Shown here in pieces: positions 56,939-59,776 of a stretch of 64,000 nt of DNA. The notes under the pieces are model-generated. The model searched no databases. It saw only the letters and a program-made list of their open reading frames with translations, and was not told the origin of the DNA. The translations under genes were made by a program, and so were the position numbers. The DNA is from Pseudofrankia inefficax. GTDB taxonomy: Bacteria > Actinomycetota > Actinomycetes > Frankiales > Frankiaceae. The stretch lies in the NCBI RefSeq assembly GCF_000166135.1, contig NC_014666.1, positions 5,890,001 through 5,954,000 of the forward strand, written 5' to 3'. How positions within the stretch are numbered: the first letter of the stretch is position 1; each line of letters begins with the position of its first letter.

Positions 56939-58189
56939 ATGCGCGTCGCGTTGCTGACCAGGGAGTACCCGCCGAACGTCTATGGCGGCGCCGGCGTTCA
57001 CGTCGAGTACCTGGCTCGGGAGCTGGCCCGGCTGGTCGACCTGACCGTCCACGCCGAGGGCGCCCCGAAGGACGCTCCCGGGGACGGGAGCACCGCCGAG
57101 CCCGACGGCCCCGGCTCGCCCGCGGTCCGGTGGCACCGACCGTGGCCAGCGCTCGACGGCGCGAACGACGCGTTGCGGACCTTCTCACTGGACCTCGCGA
57201 TGGCGGCGGCCGCGACCACAGCCGGCGCCCCCACGAGCGCCGGCCTCGGCGACGGCGGCCCGAGCAACAGCAGTCCCGGCGGGGGCGTCGAGCTGGTCCA
57301 TTCGCACACCTGGTACACGAACCTCGCCGGGCATCTGGCCGCGATGCTCGCCGGGGTGCCGCACGTCATGACATCCCACTCGCTGGAGCCCCACCGCCCG
57401 TGGAAGGCGGAGCAGCTCGGCGGTGGCTACCGGCTGTCCTCCTGGGCGGAGAGGACCGCGATCGAGGCGGCGTCCGCGGTCGTGGCCGTAAGCGCCGGCA
57501 TGAGGACCGACATCCTCGACGCCTACCCGAAGGTCGACCCGGCGAAAGTGCACGTCATCCGCAACGGGATCGACACCGAGGAGTACAGCCCGGACCTCGG
57601 CACCGACGTGCTCGAACGGTACGGCGTCGACCCGGGCCGTCCCTCCGTCGTGTTCGTCGGAAGGATCACCCGGCAGAAGGGCGTGCCGGTCCTGCTGCGG
57701 GCGGCGGCCGAGCTGGACCCCCGGGCCCAGCTGGTGCTGTGCGCCGGCGCGCCGGACACCCCCGAGCTGCTGGCCGAGGTCACCGAGCTGGTCGACGGCC
57801 TGAAGGCCCGTCGCGACGGCGTGACCTGGATCTCCGGCATGCTCCAGAAGCCCGAGGTCATCCAGCTGCTCTCGCACGCCTCCCTGTTCGCCTGCCCGTC
57901 GGTGTACGAGCCGCTGGGCATCGTGAACCTTGAGGCGATGGCCTGCGGCGCCGCCGTCGTCGCCTCCCGCGTCGGCGGCATCCCCGAGGTCGTCGACGAC
58001 GGCGTCACCGGCCTGCTGGTCCCGCCGGACGACCCGTCGGCGCTGGCCGCCGCCATGAACACCGTCCTCGCCGACCCGAAGCGCGCCGCCGCGCTGGGAC
58101 GGGCCGGCCGCGACCGCGCGGTGACCGAGTTCGGCTGGGCCGCCATCGCCCGCCAGACCGCCGACCTGTACGAGTCCCTTCTCGGCTGA
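56939..58189 (+). CDS. glgM: ADP-glucose-dependent glycosyltransferase (GlgM / GlgA, GT4-type)
   Basis: 416 residues. MRVALLTREYPPNVYGGAGVHVEYLAREL is the N-terminus of the actinobacterial 'glycogen synthase' whose mycobacterial member (Rv1212c) makes maltose-1-phosphate from ADP-glucose and glucose-1-phosphate. Seen: VHSHTWYTNLAGHLAAML, TSHSLEPHRPWKAEQLGGGY, VHVIRNGIDTEEY, FVGRITRQKGVPVLL and the E-x7-E motif in YEPLGIVNLEAM. An insertion of about 25 residues (GAPTSAGLGDGGPSNSSPGG) interrupts the N-terminal domain. Pairing with glgC supports the assignment; classical GlgA activity is the alternative. ATG 56939 was used. Confidence 0.9.
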   Translation: MRVALLTREYPPNVYGGAGVHVEYLARELARLVDLTVHAEGAPKDAPGDGSTAEPDGPGSPAVRWHRPWPALDGANDALRTFSLDLAMAAAATTAGAPTSAGLGDGGPSNSSPGGGVELVHSHTWYTNLAGHLAAMLAGVPHVMTSHSLEPHRPWKAEQLGGGYRLSSWAERTAIEAASAVVAVSAGMRTDILDAYPKVDPAKVHVIRNGIDTEEYSPDLGTDVLERYGVDPGRPSVVFVGRITRQKGVPVLLRAAAELDPRAQLVLCAGAPDTPELLAEVTELVDGLKARRDGVTWISGMLQKPEVIQLLSHASLFACPSVYEPLGIVNLEAMACGAAVVASRVGGIPEVVDDGVTGLLVPPDDPSALAAAMNTVLADPKRAAALGRAGRDRAVTEFGWAAIARQTADLYESLLG

Positions 58190-58349
58190 CCAGCGCCGCG
58201 GACCGGGCATGAACCCCAGCGAGCCAAGAATCTTGTAACTCCGTGTTTGCCCGTCACTACCAGAGGTATCTACACGGAGCCGCTGAGGGCGATGCCGGAG
58301 CAGGACGGGGGAAAGACCGTCAGGCACCGGGAAAGTCGTTCCCGGCAGC

Positions 58350-58383
58350 GAAAAGCCCGGACGAAGTTCTGTCCGGGCTTTTC
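58350..58383. terminator. Perfect hairpin in the left arm, probable glgM terminator
   Basis: GAAAAGCCCGGAC / GTCCGGGCTTTTC: a 13-bp stem with an 8-nt loop, A-rich on one side and T-rich on the other, so able to act on both strands. It is 160 bp after glgM. The right arm has the equivalent, AAGAAGCCCGG / CCGGGCTTCTT, at 58755-58788. Confidence 0.75.
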
Positions 58384-58460
58384 AGCACTCTGGCGCGGCC
58401 TGCCCGCTCCTGGGCGCGGCCCCGGACGCGATCGCGCCGTGCCCGACGCCCACCAACTCC

Positions 58461-58507
58461 CCTGCGCATCCGGTGATCAAGAATGCCGTGATCACCGGAT
58501 GCGCAGG
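58461..58507. repeat. Perfect 19-bp palindrome with 9-nt loop
   Basis: CCTGCGCATCCGGTGATCA and its exact complement flank AGAATGCCG. It sits at the left end of the central segment of the composite element and shares its outer half with the 16-bp inverted repeat 58453-58468 / 58605-58620, so two alternative foldings are possible. Confidence 0.9.
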
Positions 58508-59052
58508 CAAAACGGCGTTCGATACCCCAATTTGTCGCCTCTGTCTCTGCGCAGTTCTCGATCAAGGTGCGACAGCTGGGGCGGGCAACCGGATGCTCGG
58601 CTCCTGCGCAGGGGAGTTGGCGCCTTGGATTGGGTGGGACGGCGCCGGGGGCTGGGCGCAGTGTGGACAGGCGGTCCGCCGGGCAGCTCCGGCGTTCCAC
58701 GGGGAGCGGCGGGCGACCCCGGGCCACCCAGCCGACGACCTCGTCCGGGACGCTAAGAAGCCCGGACAGAACCTCGCCCGGGCTTCTTCACCGCTGGGAA
58801 CGACTTTCCCGTTGCCTGACAGTCTTTCCCGTCCTGCTCCGGCATCGCTCTCAGCGGCATGGACTAGATACCTCCAGTAGCGACGACCAAACCTGCGGTC
58901 ACCAGATCCTCCGACGCGCGGCGGATCCTGTCGGGTCCGAAAGAGCCCAAAGGCTCCGAGGAGGATATGCCGCACAGTCAGATGCACGTGCATACGGGCG
59001 AGCATCTGCGCGGGATATCCGACCAGTGAAGGTCGCTACCTGTGGGGGCAGC

Positions 59053-59250
59053 ATGTCCACCGAACGCTCGGTCCACCGCCTTCGCCTCGCGCTGGGGGTC
59101 CTGATCGCGCTTGTCGTCGCGCTGGTGGCCGGCATCCTGGCTCGCGCCAACAACACGACGGTGCCGGGCGCGATCCTCTACGGCCTCGGCGCCTTCGGGG
59201 GCGCGACGAGCCTGGCGCTCGCCGTCCTGGAGTCACTGGAACGCCCCTGA
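59053..59250 (+). CDS. Small two-helix membrane protein
   Basis: 65 residues: MSTERSVHRLRLALGVLIAL begins a basic N-terminus followed by helix 1 (LGVLIALVVALVAGILA) and, after RANNTTVPGA, helix 2 (ILYGLGAFGGATSLALAVLE). The hydrophobic pattern and positive-inside charge support a real gene although it is short. ATG 59053 has GGGGG about 5 bases upstream. It stands alone between the palindromic element and the suf terminator. The function is unknown. Confidence 0.6.
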   Translation: MSTERSVHRLRLALGVLIALVVALVAGILARANNTTVPGAILYGLGAFGGATSLALAVLESLERP

Positions 59251-59257
59251 GAACGGC

Positions 59258-59286
59258 GATGGCCCAGCCGGTTCGACTGGGCCATC
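59258..59286. terminator. Bidirectional hairpin ending the suf operon and the small membrane gene
   Basis: Perfect 10-bp inverted repeat GATGGCCCAG / CTGGGCCATC with a 9-nt loop, centred in the 52 bp between convergent stops (59250 plus, 59303 minus). Confidence 0.75.
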
Positions 59287-59302
59287 CGCGAGTGGGGCGC
59301 GA

Positions 59303-59776
59303 TCAGACGTTGAAGCCGAGGGCGCGCAGCTGCTCGCGGCCGTCTTCGGTGATCTTGTCGGGGCCCCACGGGGGAAGCCAGACCCAGTTGAGGACGATGT
59401 CGGCGACCAGACCGTCGGGGCCGTCGACGAGCGCGCTGCGGGCCTGGTCCTCGATCACGTCGGTGAGCGGGCAGGCCGCGGACGTCAGCGTCATGTCGAT
59501 CGTCGCCACGTTCGCGTCCGAGACGTCGATGCCGTAGACGAGGCCGAGGTCGACGACGTTGATGCCGAGCTCGGGGTCGACGACATCACGCATCGCCTCC
59601 TCGATGTCCTCGATCGCCGCCTTCTCGACCGGCGGCGTGGTGGTCGTCGGCTGGGCGGCCGGAAGGTCGGTCGCCGGAAGGTCGGTGGCCGGCGCCGAGG
59701 CCGTCACGCTCTCGGGCAGGGCCGCGTCCTCGCCCAGGCCCGGCTCGATGGTGTCGGTCTGGATGCTGTCGGTCAT
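59303..59776 (-). CDS. sufT: SUF system MIP18-family protein
   Basis: 157 residues. The DUF59/MIP18 domain occupies the last 100: IEDIEEAMRDVVDPELGINVVDLGL, DMTLTSAACPLTDVIEDQ with the conserved Cys, and VLNWVWLPPWGPDKITEDGR. SufT is an accessory factor for Fe-S cluster maturation. The first 50 residues are an acidic Thr/Pro/Ala leader (ATDLPATDLPAAQPTTTTPP), longer than usual. ATG 59776 overlaps the sufU stop by 4 bp (ATGA). It is the last gene of the operon, followed by a hairpin. Confidence 0.92.
   Translation of the reverse strand: MTDSIQTDTIEPGLGEDAALPESVTASAPATDLPATDLPAAQPTTTTPPVEKAAIEDIEEAMRDVVDPELGINVVDLGLVYGIDVSDANVATIDMTLTSAACPLTDVIEDQARSALVDGPDGLVADIVLNWVWLPPWGPDKITEDGREQLRALGFNV

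Follow-up and report, generated by a model that had tools for sequence, protein, structure and literature searches.

Stand-alone small RNAs under stress sigma factors of the SigF/SigB type are a known kind of actinobacterial gene. The published SigF promoter consensus is GTTT-N(14-19)-GGGTA (PMC4694148), and the same report lists one Mycobacterium smegmatis SigF gene with a CGGTA -10 element; likeness to SigF/SigB promoters was also drawn from a second report (PMC8346170). Two kinds of dispersed DNA provide the other points of reference: BIMEs, REPs and REPINs, described as multicopy, mostly intergenic and built of alternating inverted short sites in mosaic units (PMC2817692, PMC3733652, PMC3116915), and MITEs, described as short, non-coding and bounded by inverted outer sites (PMC10969869). 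Judged by titles and abstract openings, the literature yielded nothing pointing to either of the two objects described below, an RNA gene and a four-site repeat.

The window analysed here is a 64,000-nucleotide stretch of the Pseudofrankia inefficax genome (NC_014666.1, positions 5,890,001 to 5,954,000; coordinates below are those of the window unless a genome is named). An initial annotation had singled out one large composite palindrome within it and offered three explanations for it. Structured RNA holds for the arms, and a MITE-like dispersed element holds in part for the centre; a single composite element does not hold, as the arms have no further copy in their own genome, the centre occurs at many places without arms, and a relative (G001) carries a single arm without the centre. 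The differing genomic distribution of arms and centre had been missed in that annotation. What had been read as one palindrome probably consists of a small-RNA gene present twice, the copies facing each other, and of a single dispersed-repeat copy enclosed by them. Comparisons were made across 35 family genomes, including eight of the genus (G000 to G007, with G000 the genome of the window).

Two facing copies of a predicted RNA gene

The arms lie in inverted orientation at 58226..58386 (left, forward strand; delimited by homology and covariance model, with promoter region and terminator included) and 58752..58912 (right, reverse strand; delimited by homology and colinearity). Inverted arms of about 130 nt had been claimed, and the arms are indeed inverted, yet longer. 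Their identity of 79–81% (blastn, E about 1e-36), or 82.4% in an alignment of ten copies, is slightly below the ∼84% given earlier, and the 2-nt indel reported between them is present in the apical loop. Each arm is predicted to fold into a bulged rod (58279..58349 on the left, where covariation also supports it; 58790..58858 on the right) adjoined by an intrinsic terminator hairpin, the latter at the matching places where terminator-like hairpins had been seen (58350..58383, flanked by an A-run and a T-run, and 58755..58788). Rod and terminator together gave z scores of -5.2 for the left RNA and -6.3 for the right.

The same architecture was recovered when five copies were folded singly (both from G000, the left copy of G002, and those of G001 and G004; z -4.2 to -9.3), the best fold of the G002 left copy opening the outer part of the rod. 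An intrinsic terminator was present in all five folds and in 9 of the 10 aligned copies, being absent from G007. In the ten-copy alignment 90.9% of 363 cells were paired, and changes on both sides were found in 14 of 38 pairs, including 8 of the 24 pairs of helices 1–3 that form the rod. The covariation score was 0.300 against 0.187 (sd 0.016) in shuffled alignments, none of 500 scoring as high, and fell to 0.116 or less with partners slid. Two of the five shuffle measures were weak or not raised: pairs with a change on both sides were weakly raised (33/500 shuffles as high), and further pair types were not (473/500). In a permutation test on the four recent copies, selection on pairing was not evident from the pattern of change by itself (p 0.10–0.72 against G001), and only G004 gave 0.008. 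The terminator of G003–G006 is written in quite different letters in the alignment and keeps the same fold; in G007, where the terminator hairpin is missing, 19 of the 24 pairs with letters form. The initial annotation would have reduced the locus to a simple local duplication of a terminator if the arms were unique in the genome and free of compensatory changes. The arms are unique in their own genome, but compensatory changes separate the species, so this reduction fails.

Upstream of each rod stands a GTTT-N15-AGGTAT pattern (58245..58269, forward strand; 58868..58892, reverse strand; both by pattern match) that we predict to be a SigF/SigB-like promoter. It was found in all ten copies with invariant spacing while the spacer sequence varied. 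The -35 GTTT and the 15-nt spacing lie within the published SigF consensus of 14–19 nt in 10/10 copies, and the -10 AGGTAT, equally present in all ten, has A as its first base where the consensus GGGTA has G (PMC4694148). With the first -10 base allowed to be A or G, the GTTT-N15 pattern occurs at five places in the 8.8 Mb genome, two of them these arms, compared with one place for a reversed control. Each of the eight genus genomes contains one SigBFG match over the cut-off.

The RNA gene was detected in 8/8 genus genomes (E 1e-42 to 1e-12) with a covariance model, R1, that was built from 6 of the 10 copies and used to score 84 candidates per genome in the 35 family genomes; two copies occur only in G000 and G002. 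It was not found among the other 27 family genomes, where R1 gave weak scores only (G009, E 0.06; G034, E 0.89). By blastn, the left arm was matched in 4 of 58 genomes among the best 14 or fewer candidates per genome. A search with an arm had been proposed in the initial annotation as a check on other copies; within the own genome, where all 20 candidates were scored, the right arm matched, apart from itself, only the left arm and, at E 0.06–0.69, three short fragments, and no third arm was found. No Rfam 15 family exceeded its gathering threshold in the window or at the G001, G003, G004, G006 and G007 loci, and the weak matches, which involved perfect hairpins and for the most part animal microRNA models, were attributed to chance.

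These features place the gene close to the stand-alone small RNAs introduced above, with which it shares a promoter-like GTTT-N15-xGGTA, an intrinsic terminator and a compact fold (promoters: PMC4694148, PMC8346170). It differs in matching no Rfam family, in being limited to the genus among the 35 family genomes apart from the weak G009 and G034 scores, and in being duplicated head-on in two species. We regard it as likely that each arm is a complete small-RNA gene, comprising a SigF/SigB-type promoter, a rod and an intrinsic terminator, and that this gene was duplicated head-on around a dispersed repeat. As predicted from the sequence, the promoter would drive a transcript of ∼110 nt that folds into the bulged rod and ends at the terminator, so that convergent transcription would yield two nearly identical stress RNAs in the cell. 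These RNAs would most likely act in trans, either by base pairing or by binding protein, and the repeat would be a passive or an architectural insertion.

The gene at 56939..58189 (forward strand), which we take from its sequence to be a glgA-like glycosyltransferase gene, is a conserved neighbour. It adjoins the RNA gene in 7/7 testable genomes (G000–G006), the G007 contig ending too soon, and in the single-copy genomes (G001 and G003–G006) the RNA gene is convergent to it, near its 3' end. The principal alternative starts from this arrangement: the arms would be a bidirectional terminator for glgA and its neighbour, locally duplicated, with the rod upstream of it incidental. The strength of the terminator hairpin, with its A-run and T-run, and its position between convergent units in single-copy relatives fit such a role. 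We nevertheless consider it unlikely, for conservation reaches well past the terminator, the rod carries the two-sided changes in helices 1–3 reported above, the promoter-like spacing is invariant, and G007 retains the rod without the terminator.

The whole 630–690 bp could also be read as one non-autonomous transposon (MITE) with the arms as terminal inverted repeats, given that long inverted arms enclose a dispersed repeat and that G000 and G002 are the only genomes in which this locus has both a second arm and the repeat. This reading is largely refuted and is given a very low probability: it is opposed by the lack of a further arm among the candidates scored in the own genome, by the one arm at the same locus in G001 and G003–G006, and by the presence of long inverted flanks at only 2 of 97 repeat loci, namely the window and its G002 orthologue. 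That the arms encode a small peptide is just as improbable; the right arm has, by eye, GGAGG, 9 nt, an ATG and an open frame, but the left copy has no such start codon and the 2- and 4-nt apical-loop indels, which change the frame between copies and species as the initial annotation had held of the arms, argue against it.

In G001 a single arm without the central repeat occupies the orthologous place in right-arm orientation, between glgA and what by eye seems to be the same small gene; window positions 58751–59400 are colinear with that locus at 78%, and the sequence preceding the right arm aligns to it as well. Colinearity, orientation and upstream alignment together identify the right arm as the positional orthologue of the G001 single copy, and the inverted left copy as derived. 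The inverted duplication would have taken place on the branch shared by P. inefficax and G002, or before it, in which case G001 lost a copy; tree support for how the duplication and the divergence of G001 are ordered is low (0.42). A copy of the dispersed repeat would have come to sit between the two genes. Between G000 and G002 the right copies are 97% identical in the rod and 84% upstream, and so the right copy does not look to be decaying; the left copies are 92% identical in the rod and 93% upstream. The right copies have lost the upstream word TTGTAAC. A separate palindrome, ATGCACGTGCAT, at 58982–58993 lies upstream of the small membrane-protein-like gene 59053–59250, is also present in G001 and G004, and appears operator-like by eye.

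Anatomy and dispersal of the four-site repeat

The centre contains the exact 19-bp palindrome (58461–58479/58489–58507) and the exact 16-bp inverted repeat (58453–58468/58605–58620) described previously, and the two foldings are mutually exclusive, as had been stated, because 58461–58468 is common to both. These palindromes belong to a repeat core of four 18-bp sites in the order + - + -, located in the window at 58459..58614 (forward strand; blastn and profile). Site S1 (CTGCGCATCCGGTGATCA, 58462..58479, forward) is completed by S2 (CTGCGCATCCGGTGATCA, 58489..58506, reverse) into the perfect palindrome; S3 (CTGCGCAGTTCTCGATCA, 58547..58564, forward) was, like S1 and S2, found by pattern search, and S4 (CTGCGCAGGAGCCGAGCA, 58594..58611, reverse), recognized by site reading, is degenerate in this copy and has lost its GATC. 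The window copy is a short form, its first pair being closer, and its first loop smaller, by about 20 bp than the standard. A right tail (58615..58702, forward strand), identified by sequence match, is common to some other copies (e.g. G000:7354763-7354981).

With at most one mismatch allowed, the own genome contains 69 occurrences of the motif behind the palindromes, CTGCGCAnnnnnTGATCA, compared with one occurrence of a reversed control pattern. Among the best 40 of 186 blastn candidates, the inter-arm DNA matched at least 13 further places in the own genome within the repeat (E < 0.001; self matches and second matches at one place set aside), and the spacer left of the repeat gave one 28-nt match. 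A profile of 20 repeat copies, R2, produced 80 matches in G000, 53 in G001, 76 in G002, 39 in G003, 14 in G005 and 12 in G006, figures that do not give exact copy numbers, as a place read in both directions is counted double and scoring covered 78 candidates per genome. R2 found no match in G004 or G007; outside the genus, two of the 27 remaining family genomes gave a single marginal match apiece (E 0.004 and 0.006). In a collection of 84,980 species, which may lack records belonging to or close to the own genome, a strict two-site pattern identified 17 stretches, all in Frankia sp. AgB1.9. Plasmid and phage collections, with the same reservation for records near the own genome, gave no match at E 1e-5, and an origin from either was set aside.

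Geometry was measured from the GATC of each site in the 76 readable cores among 96 distinct ones (97 loci); the 20 cores without four ordered GATC, the window copy among them, were excluded. Spacing was about 35/70/35 bp in most: the S1–S2 distance was 33–36 bp in 70 cores, 25 in two and 14–15 in four; S2–S3 was 69–72 bp in 76/76; and S3–S4 was 34–36 bp in 74 and 26 in two. The fixed-length profile with which these cores were drawn is biased towards standard spacing in the weak subfamilies, and site words are mixed in some copies. Some copies are shorter by ∼10 or ∼20 bp. The 117 convergent pairs were spaced at 46–48 (102), 36–38 (8) and 26–27 (7), with three off phase (20, 62 and 75), and divergent pairs at 57–60 (65), with singles at 34, 41, 65 and 79. 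Ahead of the linker, most strong copies read CTGCGCA, a weaker subfamily in G000, G001, G002, G005 and G006 has an ATACCCA-like word, and G003 copies have a GTACACA-like one. The subfamily word is usually shared by all four sites of an element, and intermediate mixed forms exist; the site geometry is retained across subfamilies.

The repeat is mostly intergenic, its core overlapping a called ORF at 2/97 loci. Two loci examined for orthologous places in G002 were both empty there. At L060 (about G000:77265-77534), G002 lacks ∼270 bp that include the repeat, and the repeat is missing from the aligned place in G001; at L079, G002 lacks ∼575 bp, and no blastn match to the repeat was obtained at that locus in G001 or G003–G006. 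Repeat junctions carry tandem copies of flank-like sequence, short ones at the right junction of L060. Left and right flanks are similar over at least 30 nt at 14/97 loci, inverted in the best match at eight. Long inverted flanks (183–190 nt) occur only at the window and its G002 orthologue among the 97 loci, the next longest inverted match being 69 nt, and repeat-driven inverted duplication of flanks was therefore rejected as a general rule.

Several further observations were made around individual copies. The left flank of L141 (G001:C1:5410000-5413200) matches G002 locus L152 and its right flank L174, so that the repeat there marks a rearrangement breakpoint. A perfect tandem array (25-bp unit x 15.6, 100% identity) adjoins the copy in L077 (L077:471-861; G000:C1 7261670-7262060), and units similar to it recur near copies in L158, L164 and L179. 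A further dispersed repeat, ∼150 bp long and matched many times in G000 and G002, lies at L060:1595-1755 (G000:C1 about 77894-78054), and ∼192 bp at L181:850-1042 (G000:C1 4723050-4723242), which are not the four-site repeat, are present in G000 and absent in G002.

Relation of the repeat to known systems

The tails of L129, L130, L146 and, by similarity, L153 share a coding-like stretch that we take to resemble the end of a DUF559 protein. A DUF559 nuclease was rejected as partner of the repeat, PF04480 giving 0–2 matches per genome and none in G000, and no gene family adjoining most copies (the largest cluster held 8 of 198 called ORFs); one coincidence remains, a PF04480 match at G006:C2:1220432 near a repeat at 1220887. 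A Y1 transposase (PF01797) was found in none of G000–G006 and once in G007, itself without an R2 match, and RAYT was likewise discarded as a partner.

The repeat resembles MITEs (PMC10969869) in being short and non-coding, with inverted outer sites, and in being absent at the orthologous G002 place at two loci. It appears to depart from them in that no target-site duplication was evident at the one junction read closely (L060), no parent transposon was seen beside repeat copies, and inner sites are about as conserved as outer ones. Likeness to the BIME, REP and REPIN elements (PMC2817692, PMC3733652, PMC3116915), extends to copy number, intergenic position and alternating inverted short sites in mosaic units. 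In contrast, 7/8 genomes, including the own one, lack a Y1 (RAYT) transposase, the repeat has four sites at about 35/70/35 bp, and the window copy hairpins have no GTAG or CGTC foot: by eye, the feet of both read CCTGCGCA or CTGCGCAG, and the one place where CGTC occurs is the S4 linker of other copies.

That the repeat works in the manner of REPs or BIMEs, through hairpins of RNA or single-stranded DNA and not as a double-stranded protein-binding array, is a possibility we take seriously, albeit with less than even confidence. S1 can pair with S2 and S3 with S4, the outer pair of columns 8/172 stays paired via two-sided changes in 3/20 copies, and the nearest called genes within 500 bp tend to present their 3' ends to the repeat (78/120, p 0.0013, from a crude gene caller and with orthologous loci included). 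On the other hand, subfamily B breaks one S1/S2 pair (CTGCGCA versus CTGCCCA) with the spacing kept, loops of unrelated sequence hold about 35 bp, and the shortened copies lack about 10 or 20 bp.

The shared word in both hairpins, together with loops unrelated in sequence and fixed in length, suggests instead that the repeat may be a helically phased, double-stranded protein-binding array. The 10-bp steps are suggestive of helical phasing and no proof of it, since the shortened copies are not all independent: by eye, L005, L163 and L165 look like one deletion, the window copy and L156 are orthologous, and short direct repeats can explain some 9-bp deletions. More specifically, and tentatively enough that we think it rather doubtful, the repeat could be the DNA target of an undescribed architectural or recombination protein, with GATC at about 0, 35, 105 and 140 bp in alternating orientation and helical phase, and the outer word (CTGCGCA, ATACCCA or GTACACA) shifting between subfamilies largely in concert across the four sites, as if tracking that protein as it changes; here it might act as an insulator between the head-on stress RNA genes.

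A puzzling palindrome is in this way resolved into two testable objects, a small RNA gene and an intergenic repeat family. The former, next to a gene of glycogen synthesis, would encode a small RNA that occurs throughout the genus and is probably controlled by stress; two species have it in two head-on copies. The M. smegmatis SigF regulon table includes glycogen genes, with rows for the branching enzyme and GlgX (PMC4694148), so that a connection of this RNA with glycogen is testable. The fixed four-site layout of the intergenic repeats, read from their sequence, may point to an undescribed DNA-binding protein in Frankia-type actinobacteria.
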